Source: Actinorhabdospora filicis
GTDB lineage: Bacteria > Actinomycetota > Actinomycetes > Mycobacteriales > Micromonosporaceae
DNA: 64,000 nucleotides
Direction of reading: 5' to 3'
Assembly (NCBI RefSeq): GCF_030269765.1
Contig: NZ_BSTX01000004.1
Span: 380,990-444,989 of the forward strand
In this document: positions 23,558 through 34,576 of the stretch, in pieces
Numbering within the stretch: the stretch's first letter is position 1
How the letters are laid out: every line of letters begins with the position of its first letter
Notes under the pieces: model-generated
Told to the model about the DNA's origin: nothing
The model's database searches: none
The model's input: only the letters and a program-made list of their open reading frames with translations
Program-made: the position numbers and the translations under genes

Positions 23558-23802
23558 ACACGCAGTCGCGTAACCCACTCCCGAGATCGTCTTCCGGGGC
23601 GGCACAATGAACCCGGGCCGGTGACCAGCGCCGTCCCGTACGTACACCCGGCGGATACGGCCGACCGTCCATTTCGGTGAGACCGATGTACAGAAGACAT
23701 TAGTGATCTTCTTGCTATCACGGCGGCGCGGCATGGACCTTTGCCGGTACGGTTGGGCGTACTGTGGGCTGAAGCGATCTGAATGGTGGGAGGAGGAGCG
23801 CG

Positions 23803-25735: not shown

Positions 25736-26167
25736 CTAAACCTCCTCGATCGCCAGGCTCTCCACGAACCGCCCGATCCGCTTCGCCTCGCCGGGCGTCA
25801 GGTCGCCCGGCAGCCGGAACGTCACCCGCAGGTCCGGCCGCAGCTGGAGCGGGTAGTCGATCATCTTGTCGTCTACCTTCACCAGCGGTTCCCCGGCGGC
25901 CCAGGCCCGGGCGTCCTTGATGGTGCGGCGGAGGCGGCCGACGTAGGCCTCGGCGGTGGCCGGAGAGATGTCGAGGTCTTCGAGCTGCTCCTTCACCATG
26001 TTCACGTCGACGTCGTCGAGGACGGTGTCGATGGTGACGTCGGTGGCGTCGAGGACGCGGCGGAGCGTGGAGCGTGCGAGGTCGATGGAGTTCTTCTTGA
26101 GGCGTCCGGTCGCCTTGACCGCCTCAAGGTAGGCGAAGAGATCTTCGAATCGGGGTGCCTTGTCCAT
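25736..26167 (-). CDS. Small helical protein resembling a lone integrase SAM-like domain
   Basis: 143 residues from an ATG. Residues ~5-90 (FEDLFAYLEAVKATGRLKKNSIDLARSTLRRVLDA, read in parts) look like the four-helix core-binding domain of tyrosine recombinases. No catalytic domain (R-K-H-R-Y) follows. Residues ~105-143 (LQLRPDLRVTFRLPGDLTPGEAKRI) form a basic beta/helix tail seen at the end of several bacterial DNA-binding hypothetical proteins. Probably a DNA-binding protein of unknown role. Its start codon lies three bases from a 14-bp inverted repeat (26171-26208), a good candidate for an autoregulatory operator. Confidence 0.6.
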   Translation of the reverse strand: MDKAPRFEDLFAYLEAVKATGRLKKNSIDLARSTLRRVLDATDVTIDTVLDDVDVNMVKEQLEDLDISPATAEAYVGRLRRTIKDARAWAAGEPLVKVDDKMIDYPLQLRPDLRVTFRLPGDLTPGEAKRIGRFVESLAIEEV

Positions 26168-26214: not shown

Positions 26215-27420
26215 TCAGAAAAGACGCCAAGCTTCGCGGAGCGTGTGCCGGGCGACCTTCTTCCCCAGCACGATGCCCTGCTCGTCGGCCGAGCGGGTGT
26301 GGATGCCCGACCACACGCGGGCGTCGACGTTCTCCCGCGAGGGCGTGGCCCAGTCGGTGTAGGTGCGGGTCGTGCCCGAGGACGGGCTCACCACCGTGTA
26401 GGGCGCGGTGCGGGCGCCGACCAGGTCGGTCAGGACGCCCTCGGCCGCGCCGGAGTAGATGTTGTGGCCCGACACGTAATCGGGGTGCGACGGCGTCACG
26501 TGGAAGGGCTGCCAGCCGGTCCCGGCGAGCGCGGTCACCGGCCGCCACCAGTGGTAGTGGTACTTGGTGTCGGAGGTGGCGATCTGGGTGTCCACGAGCG
26601 CGATGTGGAACAGCGCGACGAGGGTGGTGCGCCAGACCAGGGACCGGTGCGATCCGGCCAGCGCGGCCCGCAGGACCGGGTTGTAGAGCACCTGCGACGA
26701 GCCGTACCAGAACAGCGCGGTGTCGGCCTGCGCCTGGGTGCGGACGGTGGAGTTCAGCCCGCCGTAGAGGCGCACCTCCTCCAGGTCGGCGATGTTGCGC
26801 GCCGAACCCAGCGCGGGCGGGGGACCGGGCCGGAACGCGTCGGCGGTGGGCAGCAGGAACGGGCGCGCGAACCGCGTCCCCGACTGCTGGCCGGGGGTGT
26901 AGGACGGCGGGGTGGGCTGCCAGACGCCGGGCGCGGCGGGTCCGGCGTCGTAGGGCGGGTTGACCGAGGCGGGGTCGAGGCCGTCGCCGGCGCGCTCGCC
27001 GAGGAGCGCCTGGGCCTCTTCGCGCCCGGCGGTCACGCCCCGGTGCTTGCCGGGACGGTTGCGCAGGCGGCTGAGGGTGGTGGTCAGGGCGGCGTCGAGG
27101 ACGGTGGCGCGCGCCGGCACCTGCGCGCTGAGGACACTGTGGATGGCCGAGGCCAGCGCGGCCTGCCGGAACTCCGGCGCGGTCTCGCGCTGCTGGGCGC
27201 GCGCGGCGGCCAGCCAGGCGATCGCCCAGGTGCGGGAGTTGGTGACCTGCGCGGGCGATCCGGCCTCGGTGATCGTGGTGACGGTGAGGTCGTACCACTC
27301 CAGCGCGGTGTCCACTGTGGACGCGCTGGCGCTCTCGGCGGTGAGCGACCCGGCGGCGATGGCCACGGGTGTGAGCGCCGCGGCGGTGAGCAGGTTGCGG
27401 CGGGTGGGCTTGATGGACAA
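26215..27420 (-). CDS. Tat-exported vanadium-haloperoxidase/PAP2-like protein
   Basis: 401 residues from the TTG at 27420, preceded by GAAGGAG; the frame is open further upstream without homology. A twin-arginine signal (RRNLLTAAAL... ASAS) spans residues 6-35. The C-terminal part has the PAP2/vanadium-haloperoxidase pocket: Lys and Arg in TKYHYHWWRP (~284-293), SHPDYVSGHNIY (~309-320) with the acid/base His, and RVWSGIHTRSADEQG (~365-380) with the metal-ligand His. Such proteins oxidise halides with peroxide or act as phosphatases. It starts 30 bases after the NtaA-like monooxygenase stop, so it is likely the last gene of the sulfonate operon, an unusual place for this family. Confidence 0.8.
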   Translation of the reverse strand: MSIKPTRRNLLTAAALTPVAIAAGSLTAESASASTVDTALEWYDLTVTTITEAGSPAQVTNSRTWAIAWLAAARAQQRETAPEFRQAALASAIHSVLSAQVPARATVLDAALTTTLSRLRNRPGKHRGVTAGREEAQALLGERAGDGLDPASVNPPYDAGPAAPGVWQPTPPSYTPGQQSGTRFARPFLLPTADAFRPGPPPALGSARNIADLEEVRLYGGLNSTVRTQAQADTALFWYGSSQVLYNPVLRAALAGSHRSLVWRTTLVALFHIALVDTQIATSDTKYHYHWWRPVTALAGTGWQPFHVTPSHPDYVSGHNIYSGAAEGVLTDLVGARTAPYTVVSPSSGTTRTYTDWATPSRENVDARVWSGIHTRSADEQGIVLGKKVARHTLREAWRLF

Positions 27421-27449
27421 GGGGGCTCCTTCATGGTGTCGGGACGGTG

Positions 27450-28775
27450 CTAGACGCGGTCGAAGAGGTTGGCGGGGCGCGGCAGGCCGTAGTGCTCGCG
27501 CAGGGTCGTGCCGGTGTAGCCCTCGCGGTGCAGGCCGCGCGCCCGCAGGATCGGGACGACGTGGTCGACGAAGGCCTCCAGCCCGGAGGGCAGGACGGCG
27601 GGCATGATGTTGAAGCCGTCGGCGGCGCCGGCGCTCGCCCATTCCTGGATGGCGTCGGCGACCTGCTCGGGGGTGCCGCTGAAAGTGCGGTGCCCGCGCC
27701 CGCCGCCGAGGCGGCCGATGAGCTGCCGGACGGTGAGCCGCTCGCGGCGGGCGAGTTCGACGATGAGCGTGAAGCGGCTCTTGGCGCCCTCGATCTCGTC
27801 CTCGGTGGGCAGGTCGGCGGGCAGTTCGGCGTCGAGGGGCAGGTCCTCGGGCCGCAGTTTCAGTTGCTGCGCGAGGGAATCGCGGGCGTACTCGGCGACG
27901 ATGAGCCGGTCGAGTTCGTCCTCCAGGGCCTTGGCCTCGGCCTCGGTGGAGCCGATGACGGGGACGATGCCCGGCAGGATCTTCACCAGGTCCGGGTCGC
28001 GTCCGGCCGCGGCGGCCCGGCGCTTGACGTCGGCGTAGAAGGCCTGCGCGTCGGCGAGGGTCTGCTGGGCGGTGAAGACGGCCTCGGCGTGGCGGGCGGC
28101 GAAGTCGCGGCCGTCCTCACTGGACCCGGCCTGCACCAGGACGGGGTATGCCTGCGGGGAGCGGGGGACGTTCAGGGCGCCGCCGACCTTGAAGTGGCGT
28201 CCACTGTGCTCGATGCGGCGGACGAGCTTGTTGTCGCCCCACACGCCGCTGTCCTTGTCGGGGCTCGGGGCCTCGTCGTCCCAGCTGTCCCACAACTTCT
28301 TGGCGACCTCCACGAACTCCGCGGCCCGCTGGTAGCGCTCGGCGTGGGCGGGCTGGTCGTCGAGGCCGAAGTTGCGCGCGGCCTCCGGTCCGGCGGTGGT
28401 GACGATGTTCCAGCCCGCGCGGCCGCCGGAGATGTGGTCGAGGGAGGCGAAGCGGCGCGCCAGGTTGTAGGGGTCGTTATAGGTGGTGGACGCGGTCGCG
28501 ATGAGTCCGATGTGGGTGGTCACGGCGGCCAGCGCGGTCAGCACCACCGTCGGTTCCAGCGAGCCCGACGGGCGCCGCCCGATGTCGCCCCACAGCGCGG
28601 GGGAGTCGGCGAAGAACACCGAGTCCAGCGCGCCCCGCTCGGCGGTGCGGGCCAGGTTCTGGTAGTGGGCGATGGTGGTCGTGGCGTGCGCGTCGCTCTC
28701 CGGGAGCCGCCAGGAGGCCTCGTGGTGCCCGGTGCTCATGAGGAAGGCGTTGAAGTGGAGGGGAGTGGTGCTCAT
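27450..28775 (-). CDS. NtaA/SnaA/DszA-family FMN-dependent monooxygenase
   Basis: 441 residues from the ATG at 28775, overlapping the ATPase stop by 4 bases (ATGA). Bacterial-luciferase-like TIM barrel with the family signature segments LHFNAFLMSTGHHEASWR at the N-terminus, FFADSPALWG, NDPYNLARRFASLDHISGGRAGWN around residue 95-120, and GAADGFNIMP near the C-terminus. Members use reduced FMN, supplied by a separate reductase, to split C-S, C-N or C-C bonds (nitrilotriacetate, dibenzothiophene sulfone, sulfonates). Two reductase genes lie in the same operon, and the ABC importer argues for an imported organosulfur substrate. Exact substrate unknown. Confidence 0.88.
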   Translation of the reverse strand: MSTTPLHFNAFLMSTGHHEASWRLPESDAHATTTIAHYQNLARTAERGALDSVFFADSPALWGDIGRRPSGSLEPTVVLTALAAVTTHIGLIATASTTYNDPYNLARRFASLDHISGGRAGWNIVTTAGPEAARNFGLDDQPAHAERYQRAAEFVEVAKKLWDSWDDEAPSPDKDSGVWGDNKLVRRIEHSGRHFKVGGALNVPRSPQAYPVLVQAGSSEDGRDFAARHAEAVFTAQQTLADAQAFYADVKRRAAAAGRDPDLVKILPGIVPVIGSTEAEAKALEDELDRLIVAEYARDSLAQQLKLRPEDLPLDAELPADLPTEDEIEGAKSRFTLIVELARRERLTVRQLIGRLGGGRGHRTFSGTPEQVADAIQEWASAGAADGFNIMPAVLPSGLEAFVDHVVPILRARGLHREGYTGTTLREHYGLPRPANLFDRV

Positions 28776-29500
28776 GCGGTGTCTCCGTCGAGTGCGGTCA
28801 GCAGGCGCGCGCGGATCTCGGCGCGGCGGGCGGGGGTGATGTCGGCGTCGACGGTCTGCTCGACCGCGACGTGTCCCTTGTGGAGGACGAGGATCCGGTC
28901 GGCGAGGGTGATGGCCTCGTCCACGTCGTGGGTGACCAGCAGGACGGCCGGGTGGTGCGCCTCGCACAGGTTGCGCAGCAGGACGTGCATCTTGGCGCGC
29001 GTGAGGGCGTCCAGCGCGCCGAAGGGCTCGTCGGCCAGCAGCAGCTCGGGTTCGCGGACGAGGGAGCGCGCCAGCGCCACCCGCTGCTGCTCGCCGCCGG
29101 AGAGCTCGTTGGGCCAGGCCTTCTCGCGCCCGGCCAGGCCGACCTCGGCCAGCGCCCGCGTGCCGTGCGCACGGGCGTCGCGGAGGCCCAGCACGACGTT
29201 GTCCAGCACCCGCAGCCACGGCAGCAGCCGGGCGTCCTGGAACACCACCGAGAGCTTGCCGGGGACCTCGATGCCGCCTTCGCCGGTGACGTCGTGGTCG
29301 AGCCCGGCCAGGGCCCGCAGCAGCGTGGACTTGCCCGATCCGCTCTGCCCCAGCAGGGCCACGAACTCGCCGCGCCCGATGGTGAGGTTCAGTCCACTCA
29401 GGACGCTCCGCTCGCCGAAGCGGCGGTCCAGGTCCCGGACCCGGACGGCCGGCTCGGTATCGATCAGCCCGGTGTTTACGAGCCCAGTGTGCGGCGCCAT
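28772..29500 (-). CDS. Sulfonate-type ABC transporter ATPase (SsuB-like)
   Basis: 242 residues from the ATG at 29500, which lies 25 bases inside the permease gene. Walker A GQSGSGKST (~residue 50), Q-loop VVFQDARLLPW (~95), signature LSGGEQQRVALARSLV (~140), Walker B LLLADEPFGALD (~163) and the switch His in VTHDVDEA (~200) are all present. The LLPW segment after the Q-loop is typical of the nitrate/sulfonate/taurine subfamily. It energises the importer formed with the adjacent permease and lipoprotein. Confidence 0.92.
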   Translation of the reverse strand: MAPHTGLVNTGLIDTEPAVRVRDLDRRFGERSVLSGLNLTIGRGEFVALLGQSGSGKSTLLRALAGLDHDVTGEGGIEVPGKLSVVFQDARLLPWLRVLDNVVLGLRDARAHGTRALAEVGLAGREKAWPNELSGGEQQRVALARSLVREPELLLADEPFGALDALTRAKMHVLLRNLCEAHHPAVLLVTHDVDEAITLADRILVLHKGHVAVEQTVDADITPARRAEIRARLLTALDGDTA

Positions 29501-30351
29501 GACAGGGCCCTCCTCTGGATCAGGCGGACCAGGCCGTCGGAGAGCAGTCCCAGCAGTCCGTAGAGGACCAGGCCGACGATGATCACGTCGGTCTGCCCGT
29601 AGGTGCGGGCCAGCTCCATCATGTAGCCGATGCCGCTGGTGGCGTTGATCTGCTCGACCACGACGAGCGACAGCCACGCGGCGGTCACCGCGAAACGCAG
29701 CCCGAGCAGGAATCCCGGCAGCGCGCCGGGCAGGACGACCTTCCGCACGAACCCGGCGTGCCCGAGCCCGACGGTCTCGGCGAGCTCGGCGTAGCGCGAG
29801 TCGATGCCGCGCAGGCCGTTGTGGAGGTGGATGTAGACGGGCACGAACACGCCGAGGGCGATGGTGATGACCTTCATCTCCTCGTCGATGCCCAGCCACA
29901 GGATGAGCAGCGGAAGCAGCGCCAGCGCGGGGATCGAGCGCTTGATCTGGACGGGCCCGTCCAGCAGCGCCTCGCCCCAGCGGCTGAGCCCGGCGATGAG
30001 GGCGAGGACGGTCCCGGCGACCACGCCGAGCACCAGCCCGTAGGCGAAGCGCTCGGTGGAGGTGAGCAGGTTCTCCTGGAGCCGCCCGTTGTCCCACAGG
30101 GTCCCGGCGGTGGTGAACACCGTCCAGGGCGCCGACAGGACGCGCGGGTCGAGCGCGCCGGTGGCCGAGCCGATCGTCCAGGCGGCGAGCAGGATGAGCG
30201 GGCCGAGCAGCCCGGCGCCGCGGATCTTGCGGCCGGGGCCGAGGCGGCGCCTGCGGCGGGTCCGCGTGATGCCCTCGGGTCGCGGGACCGGTGGCGGCTG
30301 GTGGACGGGGTCCTCGGTGCCGATCGGCCCGGCGGGCGCGGTGATGGTCAT
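29476..30351 (-). CDS. Sulfonate-type ABC transporter permease (SsuC-like)
   Basis: 291 residues. A proline/arginine-rich cytoplasmic N-terminus of ~45 residues is followed by six predicted membrane helices. The EAA loop reads ELAETVGLGHAGFVRKVVLPGALPGFLLGLR (residues ~190-220, given in family terms), as in BPD_transp_1 permeases that contact the ATPase. The start overlaps the stop of the lipoprotein gene by 4 bases and the ATPase starts within its 3' end, so translation is tightly coupled. Closest subfamily: alkanesulfonate/taurine permeases. Confidence 0.9.
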   Translation of the reverse strand: MTITAPAGPIGTEDPVHQPPPVPRPEGITRTRRRRRLGPGRKIRGAGLLGPLILLAAWTIGSATGALDPRVLSAPWTVFTTAGTLWDNGRLQENLLTSTERFAYGLVLGVVAGTVLALIAGLSRWGEALLDGPVQIKRSIPALALLPLLILWLGIDEEMKVITIALGVFVPVYIHLHNGLRGIDSRYAELAETVGLGHAGFVRKVVLPGALPGFLLGLRFAVTAAWLSLVVVEQINATSGIGYMMELARTYGQTDVIIVGLVLYGLLGLLSDGLVRLIQRRALSWRRTLGS

Positions 30352-31388
30352 GCCGTGCTCCCGGCGTACCCCTCGGCGCCGATCTTCTCGAAGCGGCGGT
30401 CGAAGAGGTTCTCGGACTTGAAGACGGGGTTGCCGGTGTGCGCGGCGAGCAGGTCGATGGTCTCCTGGTGCCGGGCGATCACGTCCGACCAGTCGGCGGG
30501 CACGTCGGGCTGACCGGCGTTCTGCACGAGGTACTCACCGTCCTCTTTGGAGATGTGCTGGTCGGCGACGTAGTAGCCCTGGATCCACTCCTGCGGGTGC
30601 TCGTAGACCCACTTGGTGGCCCGGCCCCACGCCTTGACGTACTCGGCGATCGCGGCGGCCTTGCCCGGGTCCTCCAGGGTCTCGGTGCGCACGTACAGGT
30701 GGCTGGGGTCGTCGCGCAGGCCGTGGTCGATGGCGGTGGCGCCGTCCTTGCCGTACTTGGCCAGGTAGCGCGGCACCGCCACGCCGCCGATCGGGGCGAC
30801 GTCGACCTGCTTGGCGGCCAGCGCGTTGGGGTAGACGTCCCCTGTGGAGGGAAGCTCGATGAGCTGCACGTCGTCCTTGGTCAGGCCCGCCTTCTTCAGC
30901 ACCCGCAGGATCAGCGCGCCCTGCGCCTGCCCCGGGCTGAAGGCGATCTTCTTGCCGCGCAGATCGGCCAGTGTGGACACCGTGACGCCGGGCGCGACGC
31001 CCAGGCGGTACACCGGGTGCGCCAGCGGGTCCTGGCGGAACTTGGACGCCACGATCTTCACCGGCAGGTTCGTCCAGGTCGCGTGGATCGCCGGGATCTC
31101 GGCGACCGCGCCGATGTCGAGGGCGTCGGCGCGGAACGCCTCCAGGGTCTGCGGGCCGCCGGAGATGTTGGCCCACTCGATCGGGAACGAGAACTTGTCC
31201 AGTTCGCCCGACAGCTGGAGCGCGATCTTGGTGGCGGGATCGCCGATGACGAGCTTGGTGCCCTCGGTGACCGAGGCGGGCAGCGGCGCGTCCAGGGCGA
31301 GCGTCGGCCCTTCGTTCTTCTGCGCGGCGCAACCGGCGAGGGCGGTGACGGCGAGCGCGAGGCCGAGGAGTCTTCGGAAGCGGGACAT
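30348..31388 (-). CDS. Sulfonate-type ABC transporter substrate-binding lipoprotein (SsuA-like)
   Basis: 346 residues. The lipobox LAGC at residues ~16-19 (MSRFRRLLGLALAVTALAGC) marks a lipoprotein held on the outer face of the membrane. The mature protein has the NMT1/SsuA-like fold: VIGDPATKIALQLSGELDKF, EWANISGGPQTLEAFRADALDIG, and the LADLRGKKIAFSPGQAQG strand-loop that grips anionic ligands. The gene starts 15 bases after the flavin reductase stop. It would deliver an organosulfonate or similar anion to the permease. Confidence 0.88.
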   Translation of the reverse strand: MSRFRRLLGLALAVTALAGCAAQKNEGPTLALDAPLPASVTEGTKLVIGDPATKIALQLSGELDKFSFPIEWANISGGPQTLEAFRADALDIGAVAEIPAIHATWTNLPVKIVASKFRQDPLAHPVYRLGVAPGVTVSTLADLRGKKIAFSPGQAQGALILRVLKKAGLTKDDVQLIELPSTGDVYPNALAAKQVDVAPIGGVAVPRYLAKYGKDGATAIDHGLRDDPSHLYVRTETLEDPGKAAAIAEYVKAWGRATKWVYEHPQEWIQGYYVADQHISKEDGEYLVQNAGQPDVPADWSDVIARHQETIDLLAAHTGNPVFKSENLFDRRFEKIGAEGYAGSTA

Positions 31389-31402: not shown

Positions 31403-31897
31403 TCAGGTAATCGACGCGTAGGCGCCGTCGTGGTAGAGCAGCGGCGAGTGCGGCCGCCGCACGTCGGCGCTGGTGAGGCGCGCGACGACGATGTGGTGGT
31501 CACCGGCGCGGAAGCGGTGCTCGACGGTTCCGCGCAGCCGGACCGGCGGGTCGTCCAGGACCGGTTCCCCGGTGGACAGCCGCGACCAGGCCACGCCGTC
31601 GAAGCGGTCGATGCCGCTGGTGGCGAAGCGGCGGGCGAGTTCGTGCTGCTCCTCGCCGAGCAGGTGCACCGCGAGGCTGGTGGCGACGGCGATCGTCGGC
31701 CACGACGAGGCCGAAGTGGACAGTGCGAAGGAGACCAGCGGCGGCGTCAGGGAGACGCTGACCAGGGACGTCGCGGTGAAGCCCGCCGGTCCGCGTCCCG
31801 CGTCGGCGGTGATGACCGCGACCGAGGCGGCATGCGCCCGGAACACCTGGCGGTAGGAGCCCGGGTCGAGGTCGGCGCGGACGGCGGTGGCGCTCAC
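31403..31897 (-). CDS. Flavin reductase (NtaB/HpaC-like, split-barrel)
   Basis: 164 residues from the GTG at 31897, which overlaps the preceding stop by 4 bases (GTGA); an in-frame start at 31927 would add 10. The FMN-binding split barrel is recognisable from YRQVFRAHAASVAVITAD, GFTATSLVSVSLTPPLVSFAL (short pieces), HLLGEEQHELARRFA and DHHIVVARLTSADV near the end. These enzymes reduce free FMN with NAD(P)H for two-component monooxygenases such as the NtaA-like protein in this operon. Confidence 0.85.
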   Translation of the reverse strand: MSATAVRADLDPGSYRQVFRAHAASVAVITADAGRGPAGFTATSLVSVSLTPPLVSFALSTSASSWPTIAVATSLAVHLLGEEQHELARRFATSGIDRFDGVAWSRLSTGEPVLDDPPVRLRGTVEHRFRAGDHHIVVARLTSADVRRPHSPLLYHDGAYASIT

Positions 31898-32376
31898 GCG
31901 ACCCTCCCGCCGTGCCGCTTCACCCACGAGGCCGTCACGTCGGCGATCGCGGGCAGCTCCCGCTCCTCGACCAGCAGCGACGGCGCCGGGAGCGCCGCCC
32001 CCAGCTCGGCCAGGACGATGCGCAGCTGGAGATCGGCCAGCGCCAGGTGCGCCGGCGCGGCCCCGATCAGGACCGGCACCGCGACGGCGCCGTCGAGCCC
32101 GCCGGGCGGGAAGCGGTCCAGGAACAGCTTCAGCAGTCCGGTGAAGGAGGCCTTGTAGACGGGCGTGGCGACCAGCAGCAGCCGTGCCCCGGCGGCGTCC
32201 TGGACCGCCTGGGAGACGGCGGGGGTGGCCTCGGTGGCGCCGATCGCGCCCGGTCCCAGCGCGGCCAGGTCGAGGACGCGCGGCGGATCGGCGGACAGGT
32301 CGGCGGCCAGCTGTTCGGCGGCGACCCGCGTCCGCGATGCGGTCCGTGGGTTGCCGACGACGATGACGAGGGACAT
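31894..32376 (-). CDS. NADPH-dependent FMN reductase (SsuE/MsuE-like)
   Basis: 160 residues, first structural gene of the operon. Flavodoxin-like fold: VIVVGNPRTASRTR at the N-terminus (phosphate-binding loop), LLLVATPVYKASFTGLLKLFLDRFP around residues 72-95, and VPVLIGAAPAHLALADLQLR. SsuE and MsuE proteins make FMNH2 for sulfonate monooxygenases. A GGAGG ribosome site precedes the ATG. With the split-barrel reductase next door, the operon has two unrelated flavin reductases. A leader ORF ending Cys-Cys lies 201 bases upstream. Confidence 0.87.
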   Translation of the reverse strand: MSLVIVVGNPRTASRTRVAAEQLAADLSADPPRVLDLAALGPGAIGATEATPAVSQAVQDAAGARLLLVATPVYKASFTGLLKLFLDRFPPGGLDGAVAVPVLIGAAPAHLALADLQLRIVLAELGAALPAPSLLVEERELPAIADVTASWVKRHGGRVA

Positions 32377-32577
32377 GGGGGTCCTCCGGTGTCGTTCGTG
32401 AGGGGAGTCGTGATGAGGGGATGGCGTCAGCGGACGGCGCGCGAGGGCCGTCGGCGGATGTGGTGAAGCGGCCCGAGGGCGGGCGGCGGGAGAGCGGTCG
32501 GGCGGGAACGGCGTGAGGGGACGCCCGGGAGGCGCGGCGGGCGCGTGCCGGGGGCTAGTGGGCCGTTGGGACCTTTG

Positions 32578-32643
32578 CTAACAACAGGTGCCGACGGCGG
32601 CGTCGCGCGTCGCGTGCTGTGTCATGGTGCCGACCAAGGTCAT
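32578..32643 (-). CDS. Leader peptide ending in Cys-Cys (cysteine attenuator)
   Basis: A 21-residue frame (MTLVGT then MTQHATRDAAVGTCC) with stop TAG at 32578-32580. A second in-frame ATG at 32625 would give 15 residues. An AATAGT box lies 7 bases before the first ATG, so the mRNA may be leaderless. Known: in mycobacteria, leaderless short ORFs with consecutive terminal cysteine codons act as cysteine-responsive attenuators of sulfur operons. Here it precedes a complete sulfonate-type operon, so the same mechanism is inferred: ribosome stalling at TGT-TGT under cysteine shortage would permit downstream expression. Confidence 0.7.
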   Translation of the reverse strand: MTLVGTMTQHATRDAAVGTCC

Positions 32644-32656
32644 GGGAGTGACTATT

Positions 32657-32682
32657 CCCTAACTCCTATCGGATAACTAGGG
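32657..32682 (-). promoter_or_regulatory. Imperfect palindrome at the sulfonate operon promoter
   Basis: CCCTA at 32657-32661 and TAGGG at 32678-32682 flank 16 bases. The site spans the spacer between the presumed -10 box AATAGT (minus strand) and the -35 region of the leader-peptide transcript. A repressor site for sulfur control is plausible. The divergent caspase-like gene starts 77 bases to the right, so it may also be affected. Confidence 0.4.
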
Positions 32683-32758
32683 ATTCCCAAATGATGGGAC
32701 GGCGGGGGTGGTTTCGGTGCGGGATGATGGATACGTCCATCGGTGCGAGGGGGTCGGG

Positions 32759-34576
32759 ATGAGCCTGCCGGACGTGACCGGCTCGCGCGCGGTACTGATC
32801 GGCGTCGGCGACTACCTCGCGTTGGCGAAGCTGCCGACGGTCCCCGCCGGGGTCGCGGCGCTGCGGGACGCGCTCACCGACCCCCGGGTGTGGGGCCTGC
32901 GCGCGAAGAACTGCGCGACGGTCACCGGGCCCGCCGAGATGCGCGAGGTGATGCGGCCCGTCCGCGAGGCCGCCGCGGCCGCGACCGACACCCTGCTCAT
33001 CTACTACGCCGGGCACGGCCTGGTCGGCGCCTCCCACGAGTTCCTCCTGGCGCTGCGGGACAGCTCGCCCGGTGAGCCGGAGACCGCGCTCCCGTACGGC
33101 TACCTGCGGCAGGCCGTGGTCGCCTCGCCCGCCGTCCGCAAGATCGTCATCCTGGACTGCTGCTTCTCCGGCCGCGCCATGGTCGGCGGCATGAGCGCCG
33201 GTGACGATCTCGCCGACAGCACGCCGATCGAGGGCACCTACCTGCTGACCTCCTCGGCGGAGACGCAGCGGTCGCTGGCGCCGGTCGGCGAGCCGTACAC
33301 CGCGTTCACCGGCGAGCTCCTGCGCGCCCTGACCGAGGGCGTGCCGGGCAAGGGCGAGCTGCTGGCGATGGAGGACCTCTTCGAGCGGGTCCGGCACGAG
33401 CTGCGGGCGAAGTCGCGCCCGGAGCCGCAGCGGCGCAACGGCAATGACGGCGGGCGGATCCACATCGCGCTCAACCGCGCCCACGGCGGCGGGGACGGGG
33501 AGGAGGCCCGGCTGCGGCGCCGGGCCGCCAAGGGCGACGCCGATGCGATGAACCGGCTGGGCCTGCTCCTGGAGGAGCGCGGCGACCTCGCCGGAGCCGA
33601 GGCGCGCTACCGCGAGTCCATCGGCGCCGGCGGCGACAACGCGGCCACGGCCATGTACAACCTCGCCGACCTGCTGGAGAAGCGCCGGAGGTTCTCCGAG
33701 GCCGAGGTCTGGTACCGGAGGTCGGCCGACCTGGGCGACACCGACGCGATGTACGGCCTGGCCGATCTCCTCGAAGACCGGGACGACATCGCCCAGGCCG
33801 AGACCTGGTTGCGCAAGGCGGCCGATCTCGGCGACACCGACGCGATGGCCAGACTCGCCGACCTGCTCCGGCGCCGTGACGAGCAGGCCGATGCCGAGGC
33901 CCTCTACCTCCGGGTCATCGAAGATCGCGGCGACGAGGATCCCGGCGCCATGGCCGGTCTCGGGCATCTGCTGGAGAAGCGCGGGGACCTCGCCGGGGCC
34001 GAAGCCTGGTTCCGCCGCTCCGCCGGGCTCGGCTACATCTACGGCATCATGGGCCTGGCCGACCTGCTGGAGGCCCGCGGCGAGACCGCCGAGGCGGAGT
34101 CCTGGTGCCTGCGGGCCGCGACCGGAGGCGACACCGAGGCGATGGGCGGGCTCGCCGAACTGCTGGAGCGGCGCGGCGATCTCGCCGGGGCGGAGTCCTG
34201 GTACCGCCGGGCCGCCGCCGGGGACGACACCGGCGCGATGAACAACCTCGGGCTGCTGCTGGAGAACGCGGGCGATCTCGCCGAGGCCGAGGAGTGGTAC
34301 CGGCGCGCCATCGACGCCGGTGCCGACGACGTCGAGGTCGCCACGACGATGGACAACCTGGGCATGCTGCTGGAGGACCGCGGCGACCTCGCCGGAGCCG
34401 AGCACTGGTACCGCCGGGCCGCCGCCGCGGGGGAGACCGACGCCATGTACCACCTGGGCGACCTCCTCGAAAAGCGCGCGGACCTCACCGGGGCGGAGGA
34501 CTGGTACAAGCGCGCCGCCGCCAAGGGCCACGCCCAGGCGCGGGAGAGCCTGGACGCCCTGCCGAAGCGGGGGTGA
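32759..34576 (+). CDS. Caspase-like (peptidase C14) protein with Sel1/TPR repeats
   Basis: 605 residues from the ATG at 32759 with GAGGGGG upstream; a GTG at 32708 is also in frame. Residues ~8-235 are a caspase/metacaspase fold: SRAVLIGVGDY, catalytic His in YYAGHG (~85) and catalytic Cys in DCCFSG (~135), followed by TYLLTSSAETQRS. From ~250 to the end are about nine to ten Sel1-like repeats of ~36 residues built on DAMxxLADLLExRGDLAGAExWYRRAA. Prokaryotic metacaspase-TPR proteins are thought to act in stress signalling or abortive infection through protein contacts. No transmembrane helix. Gene stands alone, divergent from the sulfonate operon. Confidence 0.88.
   Translation: MSLPDVTGSRAVLIGVGDYLALAKLPTVPAGVAALRDALTDPRVWGLRAKNCATVTGPAEMREVMRPVREAAAAATDTLLIYYAGHGLVGASHEFLLALRDSSPGEPETALPYGYLRQAVVASPAVRKIVILDCCFSGRAMVGGMSAGDDLADSTPIEGTYLLTSSAETQRSLAPVGEPYTAFTGELLRALTEGVPGKGELLAMEDLFERVRHELRAKSRPEPQRRNGNDGGRIHIALNRAHGGGDGEEARLRRRAAKGDADAMNRLGLLLEERGDLAGAEARYRESIGAGGDNAATAMYNLADLLEKRRRFSEAEVWYRRSADLGDTDAMYGLADLLEDRDDIAQAETWLRKAADLGDTDAMARLADLLRRRDEQADAEALYLRVIEDRGDEDPGAMAGLGHLLEKRGDLAGAEAWFRRSAGLGYIYGIMGLADLLEARGETAEAESWCLRAATGGDTEAMGGLAELLERRGDLAGAESWYRRAAAGDDTGAMNNLGLLLENAGDLAEAEEWYRRAIDAGADDVEVATTMDNLGMLLEDRGDLAGAEHWYRRAAAAGETDAMYHLGDLLEKRADLTGAEDWYKRAAAKGHAQARESLDALPKRG

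Follow-up and report, generated by a model that had tools for sequence, protein, structure and literature searches.

The leader frame and the operon behind it

The window, by which we mean the whole 64,000-nt stretch of Actinorhabdospora filicis DNA analyzed here (family Micromonosporaceae, which we take in its GTDB sense), carries on its minus strand a short reading frame that starts with an ATG at 32643 and closes with a TAG ending at 32578. Its terminal codons are TGT TGT TAG, as the initial annotation had proposed. That annotation also placed the frame ahead of a sulfur operon, and the gene content bears this out, being of the sulfonate type (ssuE/ssuABC) with ssuE first. From their order and strand, we infer that the leader and the ssuE-led genes are co-transcribed. 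The features, read in the direction of transcription, are as follows:

32662..32681, minus: imperfect-palindrome operator CCTAGTTATCCGATAGGAGT, a probable transcription-factor site; conserved, within an element found in 16 of 354 family genomes
32651..32656, minus: -10-like hexamer AATAGT, 7 nt upstream of the leader ATG (a leaderless arrangement), with equal spacing in 16 loci
32578..32643, minus: leader ORF, 21 codons plus stop, MTLVGTMTQHATRDAAVGTCC; a Cys-bearing short frame stands at the equivalent place in 16/16 element loci
32377..32577, minus: untranslated leader of 201 nt, rich in C (0.54) and poor in G (0.23) as counted over 186 nt, a possible Rho-binding region
32383..32387, minus: Shine-Dalgarno sequence GGAGG of ssuE
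31894..32376, minus: SsuE-like NADPH-dependent FMN reductase, first structural gene (PF03358; TIGR03567 below cut-off)
31403..31912, minus: flavin reductase domain protein (PF01613)
30348..31388, minus: SsuA-like substrate-binding lipoprotein (TIGR01728 below cut-off; PF09084)
29476..30351, minus: SsuC-like permease (best NCBIfam match PRK11365, below cut-off; PF00528)
28772..29542, minus: SsuB-like ABC ATPase (PF00005), 74% identical to its P. endophytica counterpart
27450..28775, minus: NtaA/DmoA family FMN-dependent LLM monooxygenase (TIGR03860 above cut-off)
26215..27450, minus: haloperoxidase/PAP2-like protein at the operon 3' end, putative start codon, without Pfam or NCBIfam match
25736..26167, minus: small protein, possibly an extra operon gene (PF02899 just below cut-off), in the same order and 63% identical in P. 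endophytica

The product of 26215..27450 is presumably haloperoxidase/PAP2-like, a name we gave it from sequence motifs. On the other strand, a divergent neighbor (32708-34576) encodes a caspase-domain protein with TPR/Sel1 repeats, and the short intergenic region is common to this gene and the operator.

The promoter arrangement claimed for the frame recurs well beyond this genome: a WANNNT hexamer (AATAGT in the window) stands 7 nt 5' of the leader ATG in all 16 element loci, which is leaderless spacing. This 7-nt spacing was built into the element search pattern, while the 16 loci themselves were found independently through SsuE. The frame had been described as having 21 or 15 codons. Because the leaderless spacing belongs to the first ATG in 16/16 loci, the 21-codon start is favored and the 15-codon start disfavored, and the mRNA 5' end would, judging by promoter spacing, probably lie at or near 32643. 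A simple consensus scan found no sigma-70 promoter at the leader.

Frames of this kind are rare in the part of the genome sampled. Among 311 ATG frames of 10-42 codons on both strands of the 64-kb window, only the leader, counted from two nested starts, shows Cys-Cys within its final six residues, and no other frame follows a [TA]ANNNT hexamer at a distance of 6-8 nt. When the sample was enlarged to 464 kb (the window plus 20 stretches of 20 kb), 2302 short ATG frames yielded 15 entries, or 7 distinct frames, with Cys-Cys in the last six residues and 10 frames of leaderless type; the two properties coincided once, in the window leader. The codon itself is a minority one, as TGT accounts for 77 of 783 Cys codons in 310 script-called genes and for none of the 12 in ten window CDSs.

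Conservation of the leader and its operator in relatives

When the whole 385-nt leader was used as a DNA query against 151 genomes, all of them had a match at E 1. Among the matches inspected, Phytomonospora endophytica alone covered the promoter and leader start, with 66 of 82 bases identical (80%) in that region; the remaining matches were taken, as a group, for matches of composition. In P. endophytica, the promoter match is followed by MTAVGKFTQRRDLVPTRAFRACCCCR and a stop, with four consecutive Cys codons (CCCC plus Arg), and then by the same operon.

We also approached the locus through its first structural gene. SsuE had a match at E 1e-15 or better in 161 of 354 family genomes, and among the first 30 loci inspected the leader was present in 16: the window, P. 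endophytica, and 14 Glycomyces, a genus assigned on the grounds that its named records have identical peptides. In the other 14 of the 30 loci, several of which have SsuE homologues of 50-52% identity, no leader of this kind stands within 700 nt, which counts against the cysteine-sensing reading. It likewise counts against it that, among 80 named SsuE loci, a leader precedes ssuE in only four (P. endophytica and three Glycomyces). A stricter scan of these 80 found four on the operon strand vs. none on the opposite strand.

The operator, hexamer, 7-nt spacer, and ATG together form a 41-nt composite element. With one mismatch allowed, it occurs once each in 16 of 354 family genomes, again the window, P. 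endophytica, and 14 Glycomyces, and never in reversed control form; since the pattern was built from members of the 16, this count measures specificity and not independent discovery. An ssuE homologue lies downstream in 16/16 loci, and the short frames after the element carry Cys in 16/16, with endings such as ...RACCCCR and ...RREIDQMRAASALC. The initial annotation had suggested looking for the peptide before homologous operons; Cys-bearing frames stand there in P. endophytica and 14 Glycomyces. Gene order is also retained, over eight window genes in P. endophytica and over six in the single Glycomyces genome that was fully checked; three named Glycomyces loci keep five within the sequence that they cover.

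The Glycomyces leaders, with sequences like MTSASLLTRRREIDQMRAASALCRPRMR, have a Cys TGT at codon 23 in 14/14 (13 distinct sequences), even though TGT is a minority codon there too (35 of the 618 Cys codons sampled over 400 kb from one Glycomyces genome). This is the sole Cys in 12 of the 14, while L144 has two and L145 four. In 11 leaders the codon-23 Cys precedes the stop by 4-6 residues; in L148 and L154 the distance is 11 and 13 residues, respectively, and in L145 the stop is far away. A reading that depends purely on a run of Cys codons is therefore weakened, given the single Cys in 12/14 Glycomyces leaders and its distance from the stop in three. The initial annotation had named loss of the terminal Cys codons in relatives as grounds for giving up the idea; this check came out in favor of the leader, as Cys is kept in 16/16, with the qualification that the stop-adjacent pair is not uniform. 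What is conserved is the promoter, the start, and the Cys-bearing frame.

Conservation in Glycomyces extends below the level of the peptide. The leader ORF contains a 9-bp GC stem in which, apart from the outermost pair, all synonymous positions are identical across 14/14 sequences, while 0 of 19 compared SsuE codons were invariant. Directly after the leader stop of L144 (G229) lies a stretch with inverted terminal repeats that resembles a miniature transposable element.

Searched alone with one mismatch, the operator has four sites in this genome, and the control pattern has none. Besides this operon, the sites lie at egtA (ergothioneine glutamate-cysteine ligase, profile match above cut-off), at an MsnO8-family LLM gene (above cut-off), and at an alkanesulfonate monooxygenase-like LLM gene (below cut-off); these extra loci are L234 (G000:C1:905558), L235 (G000:C6:153497), and L236 (G000:C6:156235). 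At both LLM genes, the operator is followed directly by an ordinary ribosome-binding site, with no leader. Its place over the leader promoter makes transcriptional control of the operon probable as well, and its presence at egtA and the LLM genes suggests a sulfur regulator, hinting that the set may form an organosulfur or thiol regulon.

In 9 of the 14 Glycomyces, an operator and leader occur a second time elsewhere in the genome, with 6-nt spacing and endings of the form ...VDQMRVASALCR. These second leaders have 24 residues (e.g., MKPANALAQRREVDQMRVASALCR) and one TGT Cys in 9/9. In eight of the nine (L250, L252, L258, L260, L262, L263, L267, and L268), the second site precedes a homologue, 55-59% identical, of window gene 26215-27450; the ninth locus was too short. 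The haloperoxidase-like gene and this type of leader thus travel together, since the gene sits at the operon 3' end in the window and P. endophytica and behind a leader of its own in Glycomyces. It is possibly an undescribed sulfur-starvation gene. To our knowledge, this gene has had no earlier link to sulfur.

Candidate cysteine leaders at other genes and in other lineages

Two NCBIfam models describe cysteine leaders: NF042934 (cis_reg_atten, "putative leader peptide") and NF042933. The window and P. endophytica peptides matched neither at E 10, which counts against the cysteine-sensing reading, and a Pfam search with three of the leader peptides gave no match. Two Glycomyces leaders tried against NF042934 scored 17.8 and 16.8 bits, below the cut-off of 27.

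In this genome, NF042934 had no match above cut-off and none at E 0.01. Two weak matches stood out by their neighborhoods: MRTPSPLLTKRRAIDYCKIAACLCRAGR (E 0.0115), with a CysA2-type sulfurtransferase gene behind it, and MDAALRRRLVARRHVDYGRTRSAICTPGA (E 1.26), which precedes a sulfite reductase-type gene; these gene names were partly read from sequence. Because both matches are weak and below cut-off, their support lies in their position before sulfur genes; this search also gave weak matches, none over cut-off, in 10 of 14 unrelated control genomes. P. endophytica has close counterparts of both the cysA2-like and the sulfite reductase-like leaders. A further cis_reg_atten match at 23712-23750 (+) was judged to be chance, as it overlaps another frame and has no visible leaderless start; the gene after it resembles sepH.

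Across the order, NF042934 matched 113 of 121 genomes at E 0.01 and 102 of 121 above cut-off, compared with 0 of 14 controls above cut-off. Of the best 30 loci, one lacked a start; the remainder begin, judged by eye, with cysA2-, DUF4395-, sulfite reductase-, cysC-, or cysD-like genes and in no case with an ssu-like one. The operon type in the window is not represented among these best 30 loci.

Outside the family, one frame drew our attention. In Cellulomonas timonensis (L071, minus, ~2595), the hexamer TAACGT is followed after 7 nt by a GTG and a 25-residue frame, MSTSTNRRHGLSDADIAAVTRCRCC, which ends RCRCC (TGT CGC TGT TGT stop) and is divergent from the ssuE homologue. The gene after it encodes an LLM protein that, by eye, is like the operator-bearing MsnO8-type LLM gene of the A. 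filicis genome. It was the one such frame to emerge once the 80 named loci were scanned with GTG starts included (7025 short frames, 75 of them leaderless-type), and it is only suggestive of a cysteine leader beyond the family. Other candidates upstream of named ssuE homologues were discarded. In Mycolicibacterium palauense, a CCC frame apparently lies inside the end of the preceding gene, Cys-rich frames in L081 and L132 have no leaderless start, and frames in L089, L111, and L125 have no Cys-Cys end.

Leaderless poly-cysteine short ORFs of mycobacteria were reportedly the subject of work by Canestrari and colleagues in 2020. Shell et al. (2015; PMC4633059) described Cys-rich leaderless frames at cysA2, Rv0485, and nirA, and cysteine-dependent attenuation by such frames in M. 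smegmatis, published in 2020, is related second-hand in later papers (PMC13236596, PMC9094748, PMC9031893). Earlier still, Seliverstov et al. (2005; PMC1262725) predicted Cys leaders for cys operons of Mycobacterium and Propionibacterium acnes and for cbs of Bifidobacterium longum, noting no terminators and suggesting Rho.

The initial annotation had seen in the window leader the same design as in the mycobacterial poly-Cys frames. In architecture this is fair, as the leader has a leaderless-type promoter, a short ORF with near-stop Cys codons, and a place as the first frame of a sulfur operon. By contrast, it has only two Cys codons, no RRxxDxxR motif, and no match to the NCBIfam model for Ms5788A, and it precedes a sulfonate operon with an extra conserved operator. 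Consecutive near-stop Cys codons are found in the window (TGT TGT TAG) and P. endophytica (CCCC), while 12 of 14 Glycomyces leaders have one Cys; two Glycomyces leaders match NF042934 weakly and the window and Phytomonospora peptides do not. With the leaders predicted in 2005 (PMC1262725), the window leader shares near-stop Cys codons and the lack of a terminator hairpin, but differs in operon and lineage. Like the leaders of trp-type attenuators, it has codons for the regulatory amino acid, whereas an intrinsic terminator was not found in it. The window leader is thus best described, on its sequence, as a candidate diverged form of a known kind of regulator at an organosulfur operon. We found no work by title or abstract on a cysteine leader of an actinobacterial sulfonate operon, which is weak evidence of absence as few subscription papers were covered.

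How the leader might act

In outline, the analysis supports the interpretation given in the initial annotation: we consider it quite probable that the 21-codon frame, at the head of the sulfonate-utilization operon, encodes a leader peptide that senses cysteine. This is supported by the combination of features that is unique in 464 kb, the element in 16 genomes, and Cys in 16/16 frames, and further by the TGT at Glycomyces codon 23, the operon order, the other leaders at sulfur genes, the second Glycomyces leaders, and the Cellulomonas frame. The stalling and derepression that it entails are modeled on known mycobacterial systems. In such a scheme, the mRNA would begin at or near the leader ATG and ribosomes would translate the leader at once. 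When charged tRNA-Cys became scarce, a ribosome would stall at TGT TGT beside the stop and so prevent a default block on ssuE and the genes behind it, while the separate conserved operator over the promoter would add transcriptional control. Given this reading, we put RNA structure around the ssuE start as the default block at somewhat short of an even chance and Rho-dependent termination in the C-rich leader a little lower, as a tentative candidate; that the block is something else is unlikely.

The first of these would amount to translational attenuation, in which pairing hides the ssuE ribosome-binding site and a Cys-stalled ribosome keeps it open. The architecture resembles the mycobacterial leaderless poly-Cys frames, for which this mechanism is given second-hand in two papers (PMC13236596, PMC9031893), and the Shine-Dalgarno of the free window leader is predicted to be mostly paired (0.14 unpaired). 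However, when we modeled a ribosome at the first Cys codon of 18 leaders and predicted Shine-Dalgarno accessibility, stalling hardly moved it: the unpaired value went from 0.14 to 0.21 in the window and from 0.26 to 0.26 in P. endophytica, and across the 18 leaders a rise of 0.1 or more was seen in two and a fall of equal size in one. Release of the ribosome-binding site by stalling is thus unsupported by these models. Four leader ORFs folded alone were no more stable than shuffles (z -0.14 to -0.55). We also aligned Glycomyces leaders by structure, using 11 of the 14 (L144, L145, and L155 were omitted for insertions, length, or divergence) and minus-strand rows without their first base. In the consensus fold of these 11 leaders, both partners differ in 4 of 37 predicted pairs, of which two belong to a helix that lies upstream of the Shine-Dalgarno. 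This favors pairing; still, the covariation term was unfavorable overall (+0.98 kcal/mol). As a complete account, we regard translational attenuation as rather unlikely.

Rho-dependent attenuation, in which the C-rich leader would load Rho and a stalled ribosome or the folding that it imposes would block it, is a shade less probable in our estimate. No intrinsic terminator (GC hairpin plus U run) was found at 32300-32800, and Rho was put forward earlier for mycobacterial cys leaders (PMC1262725). Rfam at gathering scores found only a tRNA in the window and nothing at the leader; five leader loci searched at E 1 gave one sub-threshold IRES match, in L161 and outside its leader. The C/G ratio of the window leader is 2.47 over the 138 nt tested, a value that 4 of 154 upstream regions in the genome sample attain, and the ratio of 2.38 over the 186-nt leader was reached by 4 of 4256 sampled 186-nt window stretches, which may overlap the leader itself. 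The cysA2 leader of this genome (2.04) lies in the same tail of the distribution, and the 14 Glycomyces leaders rank within the top 0.9-7.5% when set against 106 upstream regions from one Glycomyces genome, although orthologous leaders are non-independent counts for C-richness. By contrast, the sirA leader (1.31) is not unusual, and in relatives 12 cysA2 leaders show only mild C-richness (1.33-1.63). Moreover, a stalled ribosome would shield the C-rich region over roughly its first dozen bases and no further, which leaves the Rho version not straightforward.

A broader proposal, which we hold as speculative and less probable again, would make the locus a two-input gate of a Micromonosporaceae organosulfur regulon, with a dedicated sulfur regulator at the operator and the cysteine leader behind it. 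The leaders would then grade from a motif with one Cys (Glycomyces) through a partial motif with four Cys (Phytomonospora) to no motif with a stop-adjacent Cys-Cys (this genome), so that the sensor could be either a nascent-peptide motif or a bare codon run. The block would be Rho-dependent, and the Cellulomonas leader would hint at a reach wider than the family.

It is improbable that the frame is incidental and control of the operon purely transcriptional through a regulated promoter and operator: the operator is indeed well conserved and recurs at egtA and two LLM genes, the latter without a leader, but Cys-bearing short frames stand in exact register in three genera, the Glycomyces leader stem is fixed at synonymous positions in 14/14 bar the outermost pair against 0/19 SsuE codons, and the Glycomyces leader type has a second copy with its own operator.

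If the cysteine-sensing reading is correct, the leader would let the cell make sulfonate enzymes when cysteine is short, extending cysteine-sensing leaders to sulfonate scavenging in this lineage. Across this genome and its relatives, leaders of one and the same operon come with one, two, or four Cys codons, and the RRxxDxxR motif is present in some and absent from others; this natural variation makes the question of codons vs. nascent peptide as the sensor directly testable. The operator may likewise provide a way into an organosulfur regulon with egtA among its members, and the second sites of Glycomyces would tie the haloperoxidase-like gene to sulfur control.

Leaders of related appearance were also seen before other genes. 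In Glycomyces, a third REIDQMRAASALC-type leader (L245, G239:C6:617655) precedes a lipoprotein-like gene. Dicarboxylate/amino acid symporter genes are preceded by a leader ending ACC in P. endophytica (L241) and by one ending VLCR in Glycomyces (L242), which would make cysteine-controlled uptake possible.
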